A stretch of 64,000 nucleotides of DNA from Chrysiogenes arsenatis DSM 11915 (lineage in GTDB: Bacteria > Chrysiogenota > Chrysiogenetes > Chrysiogenales > Chrysiogenaceae), in the NCBI RefSeq assembly GCF_000469585.1, contig NZ_AWNK01000001.1:186731-250730 (forward strand), given 5' to 3'. Each line of letters begins with the position of its first letter. Positions within the stretch are counted from its first letter, which is position 1. Made by a program: the position numbers and the translations under genes. Below are positions 17,849-51,551 of this stretch, piece by piece. The notes beneath the pieces are model-generated. The model was not told where the DNA came from. It saw nothing but the letters and a program-made list of their open reading frames with translations, and searched no databases.

Positions 17849-18034
17849 CAGGCCATGCCTCCGTAAGGAATTATTCTCGGCATGGTAACGAAAAACAGGG
17901 GTGCGACTCAAGGGAATTATGTGGCTGGCACGCGACCAGTCCGGGGAATCGCGCTCTGTAAATTGTGGGTGCATGACTTGCCTGTGCCGTGTGATGCGCT
18001 GTTTATTGCCCGCCAGACCACGGCAGAGGATGAC

Positions 18035-18102
18035 GCAAGACGGAACGAACCTGATTCATGAGCGTTAAGGTTTGTTGGGACGTAAATTGTCGCACTCTTC
18101 AT
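18035..18102 (-). pseudogene. 5' scrap of an integron integrase gene
   Basis: On the minus strand, from ATG at 18102, about 68 bp align with the start of the truncated integrase at 45218: both share CGTCC, then ATGAATCAGGTTCGT versus ATGGATCAGGTTCGT, then TTGCG. One or more deletions break the frame after the first codons, and homology ends near 18035, beyond which the sequence is tyrS upstream DNA. It lies in the orientation expected of intI relative to the attI and cassette on its right. Confidence 0.65.
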
Positions 18103-18281
18103 ATTTTGCCCCTACTCTCGCGATAGAGGCAAAAAGAACTTTTTTACATTTATCGTTGCAACACGGAAGGATGCGGAATACAATTTTATGCGTTTGTTGC
18201 TTTAGGGTCACAGAATATGAAAATTTTCCTGATAGAGGGGTATGATATGCGGAAAAGATTCTCCTTATTGCAATGTTAGAA
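18103..18281 (+). other. attI-like region, integron platform A
   Basis: This stretch aligns with the region upstream of the second integrase remnant (45219-45399): both contain the words CGTTG(C/T)AACACGGAA, GAAAATTTTCC, GATATGCGGAA and TTATTGCAATGTTA in the same order and spacing, about 70 percent identical by eye. The recombination core GTTAGAA is at 18275-18281, with the next gene starting 13 bp later. This is where cassettes should enter. The intI promoter should lie within it. Confidence 0.6.
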
Positions 18282-18293
18282 GACTGAGACGCT

Positions 18294-19025
18294 ATGACTA
18301 AACGCGCGATTATCCACAAAGAATTAGACGCCCTCTACCAAGAGGGAGCAAAGCTAGCTGTCGCCTTCCAAAATGAGGAAGATAAGCAGTTTCAATACAA
18401 ATACCAGCGCTGGTACACAAGAGCACTGAAGGCTGTAGCTACCCTCGCACCTGATAGACATACTGAATTCCGTGGCTATTACGAAATCGACCCAAAACGA
18501 AAATCCCTTGGTTATGGCACTTATGTGATTCAGGATTTCCTTAAGGGCGTTGCTCCAAATAGGCATAGCTACCCAGATTTCAATATACGGAATCAAGTGC
18601 TCACTTGTTTCTTCAACCAGCTTACGATATTAAATTCTATAGGCGAGCGCGTTGATTCGGTACTGGGAAATATCGAGGGTGAGTTATACGCTGAGATTCA
18701 GGATAGCGAGGTTAAAGTGGCACGGCAATTGGCAAAGGTAAGTTTGCGTGCGGCTGGAGCACTAGTGGGAGTGGTAATAGAAGGACATTTGCAAAAGGTT
18801 GCAAATGCTCATGGAGTAAAAATTACAAAAAAACATCCGACGATTGCCGATCTCAATGATCCGTTAAAAGCGGCGTCGGTTATTGACACGCCCGCATGGC
18901 GCAAAATCAGTTACTTGGCTGATTTGCGCAACCTTTGTTCGCATAAGAAAGATGCAGAGCCTACAAAAGAACAGGTTGACGAATTATTGCAGGGCGCTGA
19001 GTGGATAACAAAAAACGTCTTCTAA
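18294..19025 (+). CDS. Cassette-borne protein with HEPN RNase-like motif
   Basis: A 243-residue protein I cannot name. Its C-terminal half is helical and ends ADLRNLCSHKKDAEPTKEQV; RNLCSH (residues 212-217) fits the Rx4H active motif of HEPN ribonucleases, common in toxin, abortive-infection and antiphage proteins. The N-terminal half has a helical region (KYQRWYTRALKAVATLAPDR) often seen with such domains. No signal or membrane segment is evident. It fills an integron cassette that starts TTAGAA at 18276 and ends in an attC whose R'' box includes the stop codon. No antitoxin gene accompanies it. Confidence 0.75.
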   Translation: MTKRAIIHKELDALYQEGAKLAVAFQNEEDKQFQYKYQRWYTRALKAVATLAPDRHTEFRGYYEIDPKRKSLGYGTYVIQDFLKGVAPNRHSYPDFNIRNQVLTCFFNQLTILNSIGERVDSVLGNIEGELYAEIQDSEVKVARQLAKVSLRAAGALVGVVIEGHLQKVANAHGVKITKKHPTIADLNDPLKAASVIDTPAWRKISYLADLRNLCSHKKDAEPTKEQVDELLQGAEWITKNVF

Positions 19026-19088
19026 TACGTCGCTCCAGTCAACGTCAGGCCGCATTGTGGCCTTCCTCAGTTAAGCTTGGCGTTAGAA
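19020..19088 (+). other. attC site of the HEPN cassette
   Basis: R'' TTCTAAT (19020-19026) and R' GTTAGAA (19082-19088) bracket 69 bp with a central palindrome AGGCC-GCATTGT-GGCCT. R'' is complementary to the TTAGAA that opens the cassette at 18276, as required for an integrated cassette, apart from T in place of the final C. The outer stem is weakly paired, so this attC may be decayed. Confidence 0.6.
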
Positions 19089-19188
19089 CTCGATTGAAGT
19101 TCAAAATAAGGTGCCAACATTAATCGCTACAGGCCATGACCATAAGATAGATGGTTATAGTTAGATAAAACGACGAGGTGGGGATCCT

Positions 19189-43889: not shown

Positions 43890-44195
43890 CTGAATAGTTA
43901 TACCTCTACGACTATTGCAGAGATCGGTTTTGCGGTGGCTGTTAAAAGCCAATCCGACCTTCCAGTGTGGATACAGTGATTCAAAGTATGTCAGCCTTGT
44001 AAAGTTATTGGGTTACACACTGTAGATGCTTAACAGCGCCATTAAATTTGCCCCCTACGGTCGCCGGACGCTCGCAAGCTCGCAAGCTCGCGCCGCTTAT
44101 TTTTGCGTTAGCGTTTAAAATCCTTGCCCAAAATAATGTATCAGAATAGTATCACTTTATGGGTTAATATTATTTTAGAAGGAGTTGGGGGATTT
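43890..44195. other. Non-coding stretch before the Phd/RelE pair
   Basis: About 300 bp without a gene. It holds the attC-like element at 44029-44114, with the local GCTCGCAA repeat, and the promoter region of the toxin-antitoxin pair. Nothing else is recognised. Confidence 0.5.
44029..44114 (+). other. attC-like element, degenerate
   Basis: GCTTAAC (44029-44035) and GTTAGCG (44108-44114) have the layout of R'' and R' boxes around 86 bp with partial inner pairing (CTCGC repeats). The R' box departs from consensus in its last two bases, and no complementary cassette end was found. It lies upstream of a typical cassette-type toxin-antitoxin pair. Confidence 0.4.
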
Positions 44196-44453
44196 ATGAA
44201 AACAGAATTAGTTACAACCTTGAAAAGGCAAGCGACAAAGATTCTTGCTGAACTACACCAAACAAAAGAACCTGTTCTCATCACAGAGCATGGGCAACCT
44301 TCCGCTTATCTTGTAGATGTGGATGAGTACGAGTATATGCAAAACCGTATGCAAATCCTCGAAGGCATTGCACGTGGAGAAAAAGCCTTACTTGAAAGCA
44401 GAGTGTATTCTGCAAATGAAGCGAAGGAGAAAATGAGTAAATGGCTCAAATAA
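44196..44453 (+). CDS. Phd/YefM-type antitoxin
   Basis: An 85-residue antitoxin: VTTLKRQATKILAELHQTKE and VLITEHGQPSAYLVDVDEYE show the Phd/YefM fold, and the C-terminal tail should bind the toxin. The ATG at 44196 follows AAGGAGTTGGGG and matches family starts, so the longer frame from 44124 is not used. Its end overlaps the toxin gene by 13 bp. The pair is bracketed by two hairpin repeats. Confidence 0.9.
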   Translation: MKTELVTTLKRQATKILAELHQTKEPVLITEHGQPSAYLVDVDEYEYMQNRMQILEGIARGEKALLESRVYSANEAKEKMSKWLK

Positions 44454-44749
44454 TATGGACAGAGCCTGCACTTATTGATCTTGATGGAATTGCTGAATAC
44501 ATCGCTCTCGACAAGCCAAGCGCAGCTAAAAAACTGGTTAGAAATGTTTTTGAATCGGTCAAACGCCTTGAACAATTTCCAAAATCCGGAAAAACACCAG
44601 AAGAACTAAAAGATACTGAATACCTTGAAATAATCGAAGGTCCTTGTCGTATATTTTACCGCATCGCCGACGATAAAGTTTATTTGTTGTACGTAATGCG
44701 TTCGGAAAGAAAATTGAGAGCATACATTTTAGAAGAGCGCATTCAATGA
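44441..44749 (+). CDS. RelE/ParE-family toxin
   Basis: A 102-residue toxin of the RelE/ParE fold: IIWTEPALIDLDGIAEYIAL opens the protein, and LEIIEGPCRIFYRIADDKVY and LLYVMRSERKLR supply the core strands and the C-terminal basic region. Whether it cuts mRNA or poisons gyrase cannot be told; pairing with a Phd-type antitoxin is common for both. It is intact and in the standard antitoxin-first order. Confidence 0.9.
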   Translation: MAQIIWTEPALIDLDGIAEYIALDKPSAAKKLVRNVFESVKRLEQFPKSGKTPEELKDTEYLEIIEGPCRIFYRIADDKVYLLYVMRSERKLRAYILEERIQ

Positions 44750-44788: not shown

Positions 44789-45014
44789 GAAAAACGCAAC
44801 CATTCAGCGTCATAATGGGAGAACTTTTTCAAAGCGCTCTCGTGTCATTTTGAACGAGCAGAGCGAGGAGAAATCTGACCTCCGCGAGCATCGAATACGC
44901 ATCATTTCGAGCAAAACGAGAAATCTGACATCCCTAAGTAAGGTATATGTGTCATTTCGAGCGTTAGCGAGAAATCTAGATCTCTCACGTACGTTCGAGA
45001 TGACAGGCAAAAGT
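44789..45014 (+). repeat. Hairpin repeat, copy 2 (three sub-units)
   Basis: Begins with the same leader as copy 1 (AACCATTCAGC), then has three TCATTT(C/T)GA units in tandem, the last being AGAAATCTAGATCTCTCAC with the closing TCGAGATGACAGGCAAAAGT. Its right end, 45014, is exactly where the integrase homology stops. Confidence 0.8.
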
Positions 45015-45218
45015 AAGATGCGATAAAAAAGCTTCCACATCTTTTGCCACAAGCTCCCTCGGATGTGTTTGTTCACCAAAATGGTGAATGTAACGCAAAA
45101 TCCAATGACAATAGGACTTTTCTGTACGATAGGCATAATGGTGGTATCGCAACACCGCACGAACCTGATCCATAAGTTTCAAGCTTGGATCAGGACGAAG
45201 TTTATGGATTTTTTCCAT
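45015..45218 (-). pseudogene. intI: Truncated integron integrase intI
   Basis: The minus-strand frame from ATG 45218 encodes 68 residues that match the N-terminal SAM-like domain of integron integrases: PSLKLMDQVRAVLRYHHYAY, RTEKSYCHWILRYIHHFGEQ and DVEAFLSHL. After that the frame runs into the hairpin repeat and ends after nine unrelated residues. The catalytic RHRY domain is missing, so the enzyme cannot work; excision would require an integrase from elsewhere in the genome. Its orientation, away from the attI and cassettes to its right, is the normal integron layout. Confidence 0.85.
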
Positions 45219-45399
45219 ATTTATCCCCTAATATCGCAATATATAGAAAATAAAACTTTTTTATATTTTTCGTTGTAACACGGAAAGATGCAAGATATAA
45301 TTTTCCGTGTCTGCAGCCTTAATATCACGAAACATGGAAAATTTTCCGGATATAGGGGTGCGATATGCGGAATAAATTCTATTTATTGCAATGTTATGC
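45219..45399 (+). other. attI: attI region, integron platform B
   Basis: The 181 bp between intI and the first cassette, homologous to 18103-18281. The core GTTATGC at 45393-45399 is the recombination point. Its TTATGC continues as the start of the first cassette, whose attC ends in the complementary GCATAAC. The intI promoter and any cassette promoter should be here; I could not assign boxes confidently. Confidence 0.75.
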
Positions 45400-45415: not shown

Positions 45416-45922
45416 ATGCGGCTGGTCACGGAAACCAAACGTTTGAAGTTAATTAAGGTGACCGCCGCCGACGTTGATTTGGTATATTTGCTGACTGGGA
45501 ACAAAAATGTGATGGAGTTCTTTCCGAAGGTGCTCAGTTACGACGAGACCCAGCAAATGGTTGAGAAAATCCTCCATCAATACACAGAATACGGTTATTG
45601 CTTTTGGAAGGTCCTGCTCAAAGCAGGAGAACAGTTTATCGGCATCGCCGGTCTTCTACATCAAGAAATTAATGGTGAAGTGGAAACCGAGATATCATAT
45701 CGCATGCTACCCGTGTACTGGAACAATGGCTATGCAACCGAAGCCGCGAAGGCCTGTAAAGAGTATGGGGAAAATACATTGGGAAAGAGGAGGCTCATCT
45801 CTCTGATTCATCCGAGGAACCATGCCTCCATACGAGTGGCGCAGAAGCTCGGTGCCAAGAAGACAAAATCAGTGTTCTTTATCGGCGAAGAACACGGCGT
45901 TTATGTCTACCCCATAGAATGA
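45416..45922 (+). CDS. GNAT acetyltransferase, RimJ/RimL-like (cassette 1)
   Basis: A 168-residue acetyltransferase that would move an acetyl group from acetyl-CoA to an amine, for instance a protein N-terminus or a drug. TKRLKLIKVTAADVDLVYLL, GIAGLLHQE, EISYRMLPVYWNNGYATEAA (acetyl-CoA loop) and NHASIRVAQKLG follow the RimL pattern. The start lies 17 bp into the cassette with a weak ribosome site. The substrate is unknown; resistance is possible but nothing in the sequence shows it. Confidence 0.85.
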   Translation: MRLVTETKRLKLIKVTAADVDLVYLLTGNKNVMEFFPKVLSYDETQQMVEKILHQYTEYGYCFWKVLLKAGEQFIGIAGLLHQEINGEVETEISYRMLPVYWNNGYATEAAKACKEYGENTLGKRRLISLIHPRNHASIRVAQKLGAKKTKSVFFIGEEHGVYVYPIE

Positions 45923-45928
45923 TTAAGC

Positions 45929-45990
45929 GCATAACAAAGTTTTTTCAGCGGAACGCAAAAAGCCGCGCCCGCTGAAAAGCAACGTTAGGC
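45929..45990 (+). other. attC site of cassette 1
   Basis: R'' GCATAAC (45929-45935) and R' GTTAGGC (45984-45990) enclose a perfect 10-bp stem TTTTCAGCGG / CCGCTGAAAA. Total 62 bp, normal for attC. Confidence 0.9.
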
Positions 45991-46034
45991 GCCCGCGCAA
46001 AATGAATCAGAATCTTAATCAAGAAGCAGGTTAA

Positions 46035-49016
46035 ATGAATAAAGATCAAAAGAAAGCCATCTTAGACTACATCCAGCACATGGATCCAAAGGGTGATGTA
46101 GTTGAGTCTATTTCTCCAAAAAAGGACTTCTCTGGTGGGAAAATCAAGTACAACGAATCAAGTTTGCTCGTGCACAGAGATATCTCTTCGCTAGGTGATG
46201 AGGAGTGGGTTAGAGCATTTTTATTGGTGCGACTGGTAAAGGAGCTTGGCTATAACTCCAAAGAAAAAATTATTGAACTTGAAAAGACATATAGCATCGG
46301 TCGACCAAGCAGAAAATCGGCAAGGGTCGATATTCTGGTTAAATATCCGTCAGATTGGCCTGAGAAAGATAAGCGAAATTCTGTTTTTCTATTTATAGAG
46401 TGCAAGGCACCTGAAAAGTTTGAGTCTGACAGGGATTACCTCAAAGGGCAGTTGTTCAACCTTTCAAAGCAAGAATCACCTCTTCCAGCCTTCGGTGTTT
46501 ATTACACATCATCCTTTGATGTTGGAAATGTTTTTGACAAATGCCTTATTGTAAATCTTTCTGAGCATTCGTCATGGGATGATTGGGATAAGGAGGGCCA
46601 GCCCTCAAACTCAATTATTCCTACTAATTTTGATATTCCAAAAAATATTGAATATGCAAATATTGACCATCCCACTGAAGAACAGAGGCCACTTAGAACA
46701 GACGTAAATAGGCATGAATTTGATCGTCTGAGAAAAGAGTTACATGACGTGATTTGGGGTGGTGGTGGCACTAATAACAATGATGTCTTTGTAATTCTAG
46801 TACGATTATTCTTATGTAGAGTTTACGATGAGTTAGAGGCGGCCCCAAATGCAACATATCGTTTTCAGCGGGCTGCATATGAAAACGGATTAGTAGAATC
46901 TCCTGAAGATGTGGTCGTAAAGATGACTGCATTATTTAAAGAGGCTGCTAAAACTTATCTGGGCTACAGCAATGCTGAACTAGAAGAGACTGTGCCGTTT
47001 GAGGCAAAAAAAATATCTGCAGCTAAGGTCGCGTTCGTTGTTGAGCAGCTTCAAGATAAATCACTGACGCGAAATACTCATAGAGGCGACAATGATCTTT
47101 TGGGTGATTTTTTCGAAGGAATTGTCTCTCAGGATTTTACTCAAACTAAAGGACAATTCTTTACGCACATAAATATTGTAAAATTCTGCATTGAGATTTC
47201 TGGATTTAAAGAAAATGTAGTTCAAACATTTATGAATGAAAGAGATCCTCAAGGTAGGCCTAGAATACCAAAAGCTATAGATCCGTCGTGCGGTTCAGGA
47301 ACCTTCATGATAGAAGCTATGAAGGTGGGAACGAGTGCATTATTTCCACTCCGCAAGGAGGGGAAGCTACCTAAGCGGCTAAAAGAGTATTCATCCATTT
47401 GGTTTGGCGAGGATAGTCCCAATGGTTGGGCGCGTGAATTTATATACGGAATCGAACCAAACGCTGATCTTGGGCTAGCCACCAAAGTTAACATGATTCT
47501 TCACGGTGACGGAAGCACTAATATTTTTGTCAAGAGCGGATTAGAGCCCTTCGCGAGCTATGCCATTTATGATCGATCGCATGGTTTGGCGATAACAAAA
47601 TCTAAAGGAAGTAAATTTCCCTACGCGAAGGATTGTAATGAAGAGTTTGATTTCATCTTTACGAACCCTCCTTTCTCAATCTCTCTAAGTGGAGATGAAA
47701 AGAAACAGTTAAACAGAGACTTTGTTCTCGGATCTAATAGTTCAAGCGAAAACCTGTTTATCGAACGTTGGTACCAGCTCCTTAGGGCTGGAGGGAAGTT
47801 TGTAGTTGTTATTCCGGAGACCATTCTTGACTCATCAAGTAGTTCAGATATACGTTTATTTTTATTTCGTTATTTCAATATAAAAGCAGTAATTTCGCTC
47901 CCATACGTTGCTTTTAAGCCTTTCACAAGTACCAAAACCTGTATTCTGTTTGCCGAAAAAAAGACAGATCAAGATGTTGAAGCTTGGAGTAATGCGTGGC
48001 AGACACAGGAGTCTGAATACAAATCGTTAGTGAAGGGTTTCAAGTCTACAAATGATGAAGCTCGGCTAGTATCTGCTACAGAGCTTCTGGGCCTAGAAAA
48101 GGAGCTGGATTCCATAGAGGATGTTTTATCTAGTTACGAAAGCGACTTAGATCAAATAGTAAAGGATGGCAGCTCATGGATATTCAAACGCGTTGTTAGC
48201 TCGGAGAATATCGGAGATGATGAAATATTCTTGGCTGAACCTCAAAACGTTGGATATAAAAGGCGTAAAGGACTGCCAGACTTAGTGCAGCCAGATGACT
48301 TATTTGGTGAAACTAGCGTCTTTAATAATTTTAAAAGTAGTGAGAAAGAGTCGTTGCGCTTTGGATTTAGGGTTAAATTGAGCGAACTTGCAGTTCGTCC
48401 TAGTCTTCGCTTAGATCCAAAATATCTACACTTATGGGTTAAACGAAAAGGAAATGTATTCGGGCAAGAAGCTGGGATAAATAAGCTAGGTGATCTTCTT
48501 GTTCCTTATAAACCAAATAAATTACCTAAAGGTTTGCTCTCGAGTCCGAGGTTGTTAGTCGATCTTGCTAATGTTGAGTCAAAAATGTCGATTGTTTCAG
48601 GTGTGGAAGAAATTGATGAGCTAGGATCAGACAAAATTGAATTTGGTGAAAGCGAACTTGCAATTTCAAAATTGGAGCCCTATTTAGGCAAGGTGTTAAT
48701 AAATAAACCAGAGCAGGAATGGATCGGTAGTCCCGAGTGGCTAACTTATAAAACGACAAGCGAAGTTTATGATCTTGATTATTTGAGGTTTCTATTACTC
48801 ACACCCGAAATGTTAGAAGTGTATAGATGTCTGCAATCTGGAAAGAGACACGCAAGGCTATCTGAAGCGGATTTACTCGCATTGCTTGTCCCTAAAAGAT
48901 CTAAGGCAGAACAAAACGAAATGGCAAAAACAAGCAGGAAAAAAATGATCGATATACTCAGCAAACGCGAAGAAATCGAAGCTCTTAGAAAAGAAATAGA
49001 CTTAGCATTCTCTTAA
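46035..49016 (+). CDS. Single-chain restriction-modification protein (cassette 2)
   Basis: A 993-residue fusion. Residues about 90-130 hold a PD-(D/E)xK-type nuclease (D99 in ARVDILV, E122 and K124 in FLFIECKAP), as in the HsdR N-terminus. A helical linker precedes an N6-adenine methylase with motif X (TKGQFFTHINIV), motif I (AIDPSCGSGTFMIEAM, about 415-429) and motif IV NPPF (544-547). The C-terminal 300 residues look like a target-recognition domain with a coiled coil. There is no helicase motor, so it resembles type IIG/IIC systems that cut and methylate with one polypeptide. It is noticeably AT-rich against neighbouring core genes, and fills a 3.1-kb integron cassette. Confidence 0.88.
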   Translation: MNKDQKKAILDYIQHMDPKGDVVESISPKKDFSGGKIKYNESSLLVHRDISSLGDEEWVRAFLLVRLVKELGYNSKEKIIELEKTYSIGRPSRKSARVDILVKYPSDWPEKDKRNSVFLFIECKAPEKFESDRDYLKGQLFNLSKQESPLPAFGVYYTSSFDVGNVFDKCLIVNLSEHSSWDDWDKEGQPSNSIIPTNFDIPKNIEYANIDHPTEEQRPLRTDVNRHEFDRLRKELHDVIWGGGGTNNNDVFVILVRLFLCRVYDELEAAPNATYRFQRAAYENGLVESPEDVVVKMTALFKEAAKTYLGYSNAELEETVPFEAKKISAAKVAFVVEQLQDKSLTRNTHRGDNDLLGDFFEGIVSQDFTQTKGQFFTHINIVKFCIEISGFKENVVQTFMNERDPQGRPRIPKAIDPSCGSGTFMIEAMKVGTSALFPLRKEGKLPKRLKEYSSIWFGEDSPNGWAREFIYGIEPNADLGLATKVNMILHGDGSTNIFVKSGLEPFASYAIYDRSHGLAITKSKGSKFPYAKDCNEEFDFIFTNPPFSISLSGDEKKQLNRDFVLGSNSSSENLFIERWYQLLRAGGKFVVVIPETILDSSSSSDIRLFLFRYFNIKAVISLPYVAFKPFTSTKTCILFAEKKTDQDVEAWSNAWQTQESEYKSLVKGFKSTNDEARLVSATELLGLEKELDSIEDVLSSYESDLDQIVKDGSSWIFKRVVSSENIGDDEIFLAEPQNVGYKRRKGLPDLVQPDDLFGETSVFNNFKSSEKESLRFGFRVKLSELAVRPSLRLDPKYLHLWVKRKGNVFGQEAGINKLGDLLVPYKPNKLPKGLLSSPRLLVDLANVESKMSIVSGVEEIDELGSDKIEFGESELAISKLEPYLGKVLINKPEQEWIGSPEWLTYKTTSEVYDLDYLRFLLLTPEMLEVYRCLQSGKRHARLSEADLLALLVPKRSKAEQNEMAKTSRKKMIDILSKREEIEALRKEIDLAFS

Positions 49017-49039
49017 TTTTAATCGAGCATAGATACAGC

Positions 49040-49102
49040 GCCTAACGGATAAGGTTAGATCGTGATCGCGAAGCGAGCCACGATCTGAACCGTTTGTTGG
49101 AC
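49040..49102 (+). other. attC site of cassette 2
   Basis: R'' GCCTAAC (49040-49046) and R' GTTGGAC (49096-49102) enclose the perfect palindrome AGATCGTG / CACGATCT. Total 63 bp. Confidence 0.9.
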
Positions 49103-49321
49103 AAGCCCAGCGGCGACCGCCATGTTACATGAAAATATTTTTTAGGATCTTGGGTTGCTAGATCAGTAAATTGAATCGTCGCGAGGTTGGAAGTAGTTGC
49201 GGATTATTTGCTGCCATTATTTTGTTATTTTATCGTTTTTTATCGCCCTTTTGGTTGTTTTTTAGGCACAGCTATCCCATAGCATGTAGGTTGATTGACT
49301 CTCTCTGGCACGTAGTGCGGT
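49103..49321. other. Non-coding end of IS91-like element and cassette 3 start
   Basis: No gene is seen. The stretch contains T-rich runs (TTATTTTATCG near 49220) and should include one terminus of the IS91-like element, but its exact boundary cannot be read because IS91 elements lack terminal inverted repeats. Confidence 0.5.
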
Positions 49322-50410
49322 TTACATAGATAACGTCTCTTGGTTTGTCCGCTGGTACAGAATCTGTGGGTGGGAAACCATGGTTGCGAGGATTGTCATA
49401 TCTGCTCCGCAAGACGGACAAACGATTGCTGGCCGTGGTTTGTTGTTACAGCGCCATGGCTTTACTCGCAGCACCAGCTGCAGGATGCGGATCAGCTTTT
49501 TACTCCCTGCATGGAGGAATCCATACGATCTTGCTCGCCGGAATCTTCGAGGGAGCACGTGGAGCATGAGCAGATAAAGAAAGTACTCGCCTTTGACAGT
49601 TCTGGTGCGGTTTTCGCCACTTTTTGCGTGGCGATAGCGGAAGGTGATCATGCCGTTTTGGTTGTGCAGAATGTCTTTTTCACGGATCACACCGCGATAC
49701 AAATAGCGGCCAAGGTAGATTAATGCTTTTTCACCGTTGCCTGCATCCTTGCAGTCAACCACCCACTGTTTTGGGCAATCATACGGAACGGACAGTTTGT
49801 TTTCGACCAGACTTTGGAGCAGCTTTGCTCGGAACACTGTGGCCAATGCTTTATGACAAAAGAGATATTTCCCAAATTTCTTGTTCCACAGCCTGGTTTC
49901 CAGAGTGATGCTTGCTCCCGGCATGATCACGTGGATATGGGGATGGTAGTCCAAGGTTCTGGAATGGGTATGCAAAATGGCAGTAAATCCCGCTGATCCT
50001 CCGAGTTTTTTGTCATTACTGGTGAAGGTTTTTAGGAGAGCTTGCACGGATTCGAACATCTGAGTGTAAACGGCTTGCTGGTGTTTCCATGCTAGATCAC
50101 GCAACTGGCTTGGCAGGGTAAAGGTTATCAGATAGTATTGACACGGTAGCCGCTTTTCAAGCTGGCTTTCCAACCACTGCTGACTCTCGTAATTTTGGCA
50201 GTGTGGGCAGTTTCTGTGGCCGCAGGAATGGGGGATGTAGACCCGTTCTAAGCATTGGTGGTCTGTGCAACAGGCCACCATGTGCGGCCCATGTTCTTGT
50301 CTGCACCGAACCATTGATTCCAGTGCCTTGATATGGCTTGGCAGGAGGTTTTGCTTGTAAGCGCGCAAGAAACTCTCCTTGAATTCATTGATAATTATGG
50401 AGAGCCGCAT
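49322..50410 (-). CDS. IS91-family transposase (Y2 HUH)
   Basis: A 362-residue rolling-circle transposase of the IS91/IS801 type. The N-terminal zinc finger reads CTDHQCLERVYIPHSCGH and CPHC; the HUH metal site is YHPHIHVIMPG; the tyrosines lie in ALIYLGRYLYRGV; the C-terminal zinc-finger-like CPSCGADM is present. All are intact, so it may be active. The ATG shares one base with the stop of the tyrosine recombinase gene (TAATG), so the two are translated together. Confidence 0.95.
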   Translation of the reverse strand: MRLSIIINEFKESFLRAYKQNLLPSHIKALESMVRCRQEHGPHMVACCTDHQCLERVYIPHSCGHRNCPHCQNYESQQWLESQLEKRLPCQYYLITFTLPSQLRDLAWKHQQAVYTQMFESVQALLKTFTSNDKKLGGSAGFTAILHTHSRTLDYHPHIHVIMPGASITLETRLWNKKFGKYLFCHKALATVFRAKLLQSLVENKLSVPYDCPKQWVVDCKDAGNGEKALIYLGRYLYRGVIREKDILHNQNGMITFRYRHAKSGENRTRTVKGEYFLYLLMLHVLPRRFRRARSYGFLHAGSKKLIRILQLVLRVKPWRCNNKPRPAIVCPSCGADMTILATMVSHPQILYQRTNQETLSM

Positions 50411-51315
50411 TATTTACGTCCCCTCCACTTGATGTCTAAAGAGTTCACGACAGAGTTGACAACCGTTCTGGTGTTGTTGGCTGTTGTGGCGGTCAAGTGG
50501 GTATATCTGGCAGTGGTTAGAATGCTGACATGGCCAAGAATCTGCTGCAGCTCGAGCAGGTCGACTCCAGCTTCCAGCATATGGGTGGCATAACTGTGGC
50601 GCAGGGAATAGCATGTGATCCTCTTTAGGCCAAGGTGCTGAACCACGCCTTGCATAGCGGTTTGGATGCCTCCCCTGTCCAGAGGCAAATCAACCAAGTG
50701 GGCATTCTTCAGGCCTCGTTTTCTACTGGGGAAAAGAAAGCGGGGATGCTGGTGCACCGCCCAGAACTCCCGCAACAGCTGCAATGTTTTATCAGGCAAA
50801 GGCACCAGTCGATCCTTATTTCCCTTGGCATCGCGAATATGCACCCGCATATTGCCAGCGTCGATATCGTCTACCGTAAGCCGGATACCCTCACCAAGGC
50901 GTAAACCAATGCTATAGCAGGTGAAGAAGAAAACCTTGTAGCTCAAAATACTGGTTGCTGCGAATAACTGTCCGGCCTGCTCCACCGACAAAATATCAGG
51001 AATTCTTGATGCATTGGGCGGTTTGATCAGGAGAATGTTGTCCCAAGGTTTGCGCAGCACTTCGGAGTAGAAGAATTTCAGCCCGTAGAGGTCAAGCTTG
51101 ACCGCACTCCAAGAGTGCGTATCCAGAAGCTCAGTGAAATAGTCAAGCAGCTGATCGGGCGAGAGGTCACCAACATTGCCATCGAAATAATTGCCGATGC
51201 GCCGGATCGCCCTAGCATCAATGGTCTTCGGTTGCAGACCGCCAAGTTTGAGGCATTTGAGATGTTTCTGATACAGTTTGCTAAAATTCGGATCTTGCAG
51301 CAGAGTGGTGTTCAT
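50410..51315 (-). CDS. Tyrosine recombinase of the IS91-like element
   Basis: A 301-residue phage-integrase-type recombinase. The catalytic Arg is in YSIGLRLGEGIRL, the second box is CYSLRHSYATHMLEAGVD (H-x-x-R type), and the nucleophile Tyr is in TTARYTHLT. It is coupled to the transposase gene and reads in the same direction, as in IS91 relatives that carry an accessory recombinase. It is unlike the integron integrase fragment at 45 kb, lacking the IntI-specific insert, so it should not serve the cassettes. A GAGGAG site precedes the ATG at 51315. Confidence 0.93.
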   Translation of the reverse strand: MNTTLLQDPNFSKLYQKHLKCLKLGGLQPKTIDARAIRRIGNYFDGNVGDLSPDQLLDYFTELLDTHSWSAVKLDLYGLKFFYSEVLRKPWDNILLIKPPNASRIPDILSVEQAGQLFAATSILSYKVFFFTCYSIGLRLGEGIRLTVDDIDAGNMRVHIRDAKGNKDRLVPLPDKTLQLLREFWAVHQHPRFLFPSRKRGLKNAHLVDLPLDRGGIQTAMQGVVQHLGLKRITCYSLRHSYATHMLEAGVDLLELQQILGHVSILTTARYTHLTATTANNTRTVVNSVVNSLDIKWRGRK

Positions 51316-51449
51316 TGTAATCTCCTCGGCAATTGATAGAGAGCGGCAACCGCTCTGCTGCTACCTATTACCGAATATCTTGAAATTACAACTGGTTAAT
51401 TGTGCTTAGATGGGTTTATTCTGGAATTTATCTGCCGCGTAGCGGCTTC

Positions 51450-51551
51450 GTCCAACAAACCGATGCTGAGCGACCAAAGCATATCGACATGCCTTTTGCT
51501 TACGCAAAAGCTACGCCGATATTCTTTGGCGCCAGATTAGGGGCGTTAGAA
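51450..51551 (+). other. attC site of cassette 3
   Basis: R'' GTCCAAC (51450-51456) and R' GTTAGAA (51545-51551) enclose a long imperfect stem centred on CTTTTGC-TTAC-GCAAAAG, with CCAAAG(A/C)ATATCG arms on each side. Total 102 bp, longer than the other two but within attC range. Confidence 0.85.

Follow-up and report, generated by a model that had tools for sequence, protein, structure and literature searches.

Among restriction-modification (R-M) enzymes that consist of one chain, the closest described layout is that of HaeIV, a Type IIB enzyme of the form R~M~[GAY] that cleaves DNA on either side of a symmetric site and presumably works as a homodimer (PMC3874165). Engineered M-half-S fusions dimerise, and palindromic split sites are recognised (PMC6158711). 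The Type IIB enzyme RM.BsaXI (PDB 8w0p) works instead as (RM)2S, with a separate S subunit of 476 aa that carries two TRDs (PMC11997821). R-M and other defence genes have already been reported in integron cassettes of Xanthomonas (PMC12444791), and mobile elements that target attC sites, namely IS1111-attC elements and group IIC-attC introns, are named in the literature (PMC11187229, PMC7923331).

We analysed a stretch of 64,000 nucleotides from Chrysiogenes arsenatis DSM 11915, hereafter the window, in which an integron cassette holds an R-M gene. Like HaeIV, its product is a single chain with a nuclease, a methylase and one TRD, and would need no separate S or M; this likeness is one of domain layout as described, not of sequence comparison. 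Unlike our cassette, HaeIV has a known site and is not described in PMC3874165 as an integron cassette. With the Xanthomonas cases (PMC12444791) the locus has in common that a defence gene forms a cassette, and it differs from them in the single-chain enzyme, the cassette length of 3.1 kb and the occurrence in two phyla. We consider it likely that this is a genuine integron cassette with one single-chain Type IIB-like R-M gene (nuclease, BsaXI-branch methylase and one TRD), whose attC was later invaded by an IS91-type element. The platform and its cassettes are arranged as follows.

44985-45218, minus strand: N-terminal remnant of an integron integrase gene (intI), matching positions 1-55 only of TIGR02249
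45219-45393, plus strand: attI-like site with the presumed cassette promoter region, ending at the cassette junction G/TTATGC and similar to further copies in the genome
45394-45984, plus strand: first cassette, with a GNAT acetyltransferase gene (CDS 45416-45922; PF13302, E 6e-31), delimited by attC scan and fold
45985-49096, plus strand: R-M cassette in its present-day form
46035-49016, plus strand: intact ORF of the 993-aa R-M protein, from the ORF list, domain searches and fold comparison

The first nine bases of the R-M cassette (GTTAGGCGC) are the exact complement, at 9/9 positions, of the R'' box at its end (GCGCCTAAC, 49038-49046). The cut position G/TT is present at both ends, with the left junction G/TTAGGCGC at 45984/45985 and the right junction G/TTGGAC at 49096/49097. 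Since cassette start and R'' match in this way, the R-M cassette would once have existed as a circle; when the ends of this circle are rejoined, the attC folds with the outer R''/R' stem closed. In place, the hairpin at the cassette end is imperfect and outscores every shuffle (z -3.5 to -4.1). The attC of the preceding GNAT cassette runs from R'' (45929-45935) to R' (45984-45990), and the start of that cassette, GTTATGC, complements its R'' GCATAAC. The cassette limits proposed in an earlier note on this DNA are therefore exact to the base, and the AT-richness that it had remarked on is borne out by a GC content of 39.9%, compared with 50.1% for the window. No significant promoter signal was found for the R-M gene.

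The same note had described the cassette as one mobile unit, which is not supported in this form: the cassette would be movable with an integrase in trans, but the resident integrase survives only as fragments and the IS91-type element splits the attC. No complete integron integrase was found in the host genome (2.83 Mb, 22 contigs), where two pieces remain, an N-terminal one in the window and, on contig C8, a C-terminal one that contains a stop. Because only these remnants are kept, the R-M cassette sits in an integrase-less platform and is mobile only with an integrase provided in trans. A Phd/ParE-type toxin-antitoxin pair (44124-44749), flanked by short dispersed-element repeats, adjoins the intI remnant on its left.

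Domain searches of the R-M protein returned an HSDR_N-type PD-(D/E)xK nuclease and an N6-adenine methylase. The best relative in the PDB is RM.BsaXI (E 2.5e-132 by sequence), which is again the best fold match of the protein model (E 3.8e-45); DrdV, a Type IIG enzyme, is a far poorer match by fold. The alignment with RM.BsaXI covers nuclease, helical connector, N6-MTase and knob-like region, over residues 34-665; unlike our protein, the RM chain of BsaXI has no TRD and needs the separate two-TRD S. The parts of the chain are as follows.

About aa 55-175: nuclease
aa 226-340: helical connector
aa 350-650: N6-MTase
aa 645-723: helical knob-like region
About aa 756-955: one TRD
aa 957-992: C-terminal helix

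The last 238 aa give one match to Type I specificity subunits (E 3.7e-11). The AlphaFold model, for which an input of 32 rows was used after a two-sequence input had given a pLDDT of 30, has a mean pLDDT of 63 and resolves the nuclease and methylase but not the fold of the TRD; confidence is about 30 over residues 737-955, and the TRD is assigned from the sequence match. The earlier description of a 993-aa nuclease-methylase-specificity fusion thus stands as regards the presence of all three domains in one chain, with the limitation that the specificity part is a single TRD, which makes the chain similar to HaeIV and not to a complete fusion with two TRDs. In another genome, a more distant relative consists of an RM chain of 801 aa followed by a separate specificity ORF of 242 aa, which suggests that the R-M protein joins two such ORFs in one.

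From the layout of HaeIV and the precedent of the engineered fusions, a homodimer acting on a symmetric split site would be expected. Single-TRD Type IIG enzymes such as MmeI, on the other hand, recognise continuous asymmetric sites, and for this reason the dimer and the palindrome are not certain. An alternative reading of the protein is accordingly a Type IIG/IIL monomer of the MmeI or BpuSI kind, which would use its single TRD on a continuous asymmetric site and cut on one side only. Such enzymes have the same one-chain order R-M-TRD, and several Type IIG models match the protein in a profile search. We nevertheless consider this reading unlikely, given that nuclease and methylase are clearly nearest to BsaXI, that the TRD has its match among Type I-like specificity subunits and that the long C-terminal helix after the TRD suits dimerisation.

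The same cassette was searched for elsewhere, and a pattern scan of 85,000 species genomes, which reaches close relatives only, returned one close homologue of the R-M protein, in Psychromonas sp. SA13A, a member of another phylum. The two proteins are 77% identical (23% of residues differ), and 66% of the comparable fourfold-degenerate sites differ between the genes; amino acid identity of this order despite such differences at silent sites indicates that the R-M protein has been kept by selection. The Psychromonas gene is the first cassette beside an integron integrase gene, itself with one internal stop, and the gene in the window stands behind the GNAT cassette. The ends of the Psychromonas cassette are complementary at 9/9 positions, and the same kind of attC body lies at its end, followed by an IS91-type remnant; this attC body and its tail recur elsewhere in that genome. 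Thus both close copies (2/2) are integron cassettes, and the gene was not found mostly outside integrons. No further full-length copy was found in 296 genomes of the Psychromonas order, where most relatives match the methylase domain only, or in 51 genomes of the host's phylum. Plasmid and phage records gave distant methylase matches only, and a viral scan with the single R-M sequence gave no match; a profile scan returned 35 distant relatives, which were used for folding only.

The comparison with Psychromonas also bears on the possibility that the gene is a methylation-only remnant, or part of a decaying cassette, without restriction activity. The loss of the integrase and the invasion of the attC would fit such decay. 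Against it, the ORF is full-length and the protein is strongly conserved while silent sites are saturated. When five related sequences are aligned, the presumed catalytic residues D99, E122 and K124, the DPxCGSG motif and NPPF (N544-F547) prove invariant or intact, so that the methylase motifs are not those of an inactive enzyme. We regard loss of restriction activity as quite improbable; the cassette is real and intact, and probably active.

The earlier note had further supposed a self-contained restriction system. Each of the two R-M cassettes, in the window and in Psychromonas, contains one gene. A search for Methylase_S (PF01420) gave no match anywhere in the host genome and was positive in 9 of 14 control genomes, and a separate two-TRD S gene is absent both beside the R-M gene and in the whole host genome. 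With no HsdS-type gene available, the R-M protein should act alone, in agreement with that supposition. These results also make it very unlikely that the protein is a BsaXI-type RM subunit in need of a separate two-TRD S, and the cassette a partial system. Such a reading would draw on the closest solved protein, RM.BsaXI, acting as (RM)2S (PMC11997821). In both copies, however, the 238 aa at the C-terminus give a match to Type I specificity subunits (E 1e-11 in Psychromonas), the host genome lacks an HsdS-type gene and each cassette is single-gene. Taken as a single-chain enzyme, the protein would most likely form a homodimer in the manner of HaeIV and recognise a symmetric split site. We infer the dimer, the symmetry of the site, the geometry of cutting and an antiphage role alike.

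The end of the R-M cassette is occupied by an element with two genes, one for a tyrosine recombinase and one for an IS91 Y2 transposase. Its features are as follows.

49047-51456, minus strand: tyrosine recombinase and IS91-type element of 2,410 bp, lying in the cassette attC directly after R'', from boundary and fold comparisons and an empty site in E. coli
49322-50410, minus strand: IS91-family Y2 transposase gene (NF033538, 327 bits, cut-off 125)
50410-51315, minus strand: tyrosine recombinase gene of the element, IntI-related but not IntI (PF00589, E 1.5e-32)
49038-49102, plus strand: hybrid attC, with R'' (49038-49046) from the R-M cassette and the body and R' (GTTGGAC, 49096-49102) from the element; the same body follows differing R'' boxes at four genome sites
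51457-51551, plus strand: displaced original attC body (51457-51544; hairpin z -4.6) and R' (GTTAGAA, 51545-51551) of the R-M cassette

The recombinase does not qualify as an integron integrase, as it scores 127 bits against TIGR02249, below the cut-off of 265, and leaves positions 178-214 unmatched. The stretch from just past R'' through the hairpin into the IS91-type element is found at four sites of the host, 94-96% identical, behind four different genes with different R'' boxes. Past the right end of the element, a hairpin of 88 nt and GTTAGAAAGC follow, which together with R'' and the cassette start fold as a full attC (-33.3 kcal/mol); on this basis, we take them for the attC body that the R-M cassette had originally. 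It is highly improbable that there is no real cassette and that the attC-like site merely combines chance sequence on the left with a hairpin that terminates the neighbouring IS91-type element: the hairpin body does recur with the element at other host sites and in other bacteria, but R'' lies outside the element, varies by site and matches the R-M cassette start 9/9 in both host and Psychromonas, the displaced body beyond the element folds with R'' and the cassette start, and an attI-like site and a second complete cassette stand directly upstream.

The mode of insertion is clearest in the IncC plasmid RCS41_p of E. coli (NZ_LT985243.1), where aadA1 and the 3' conserved segment of a class 1 integron flank a relative of the element, which has the same two genes as in the other plasmid cases. 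Compared with the empty site, the element stands exactly after R'' GTCTAAC; beyond its right end, the aadA1 attC body is complete and keeps its original orientation, and nothing is missing. The same comparison, by showing insertion between R'' and body, led us to drop the ideas that the shared hairpin is a uniform host attC type or the terminal hairpin of an IS, and showed that the insertion did not invert the attC body. Five copies from Vibrionaceae plasmids give a similar picture, in some cases less clearly. Clear attC hairpins form the right-hand remnants in Salinivibrio, in E. coli and in the window; P. toruni (L167) has R' boxes that agree at 7/7 positions but a weak fold, and P. damselae (L163, L164) and P. 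ganghwense (L165) have no clear right-hand attC hairpin. As a control, 537 random AAC sites were screened, of which 14 had a comparable hairpin with R'. Each of the seven elements compared has an R'' and an R' of its own that are complementary at 6-7 of 7 positions, and a circle of the element would for this reason carry an attC itself.

On this evidence, an IS91-type element that brought a tyrosine recombinase and an attC along later entered the attC of the R-M cassette between R'' and body, and thereby handed its attC body to the cassette, so that a foldable attC remains. On balance, we favour the view that this is a widespread element family (tyrosine recombinase and IS91-type Y2 transposase) that inserts after the R'' of attC sites, has an attC-bearing circle and swaps the bodies, with the invaded cassette left foldable and the element itself cassette-like. 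IS1111-attC elements and group IIC-attC introns have the attC as target in common with it; the present element differs from them in its Y2 transposase and tyrosine recombinase, its landing right after R'' and its own attC body. No description of such an attC-invading element was found in the open-access literature searched.

About eight attI-like copies are dispersed in the host genome, and seven of them end at the same G/TT junction, each followed by a different gene. On their left, several of the copies on contigs C4, C22, C8 and C3 have similar limits, some 250 bp upstream and within the start of intI. A second copy in the window is 74% identical to the one at 45150-45395, and behind it lies an ORF of 243 aa with cassette-like ends (GTTAGAAGAC / GTCTTCTAAT); copy and ORF together occupy 18034-19090. 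On contig C4, a small cassette stands behind the attI-like copy, and a complete Type II system comes next (cytosine methylase, E 1e-133; restriction enzyme, E 1.2e-147). This system (L100, 5741-7820, minus strand) appears to be a single 2.1-kb cassette with its attC body likewise replaced by that of the IS91-type element. Near the copy on contig C22, there is a Type IV Mrr-like gene (L118, 5101-6018), and in the same stretch, behind that copy, inspection by eye suggests a pair resembling RloA/RloB. In a relative of the host, an apparent class 1 integron integrase with resistance-type genes is seen near contig position 9,300-12,600.

Altogether, the claim of a whole R-M system in a cassette is right, but the layout of the enzyme and R-M genes in cassettes are both already known, and the element that invades the attC is the more unusual part. 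The R-M cassette is a clean case of a whole R-M system in one gene and one cassette, common to two phyla, and it supports the view of integrons as carriers of defence genes. The displaced attC points to a route for the invasion and re-issue of attC sites, and such invasion bears on the origin of cassette recombination sites and on the repeated attC bodies in arrays.
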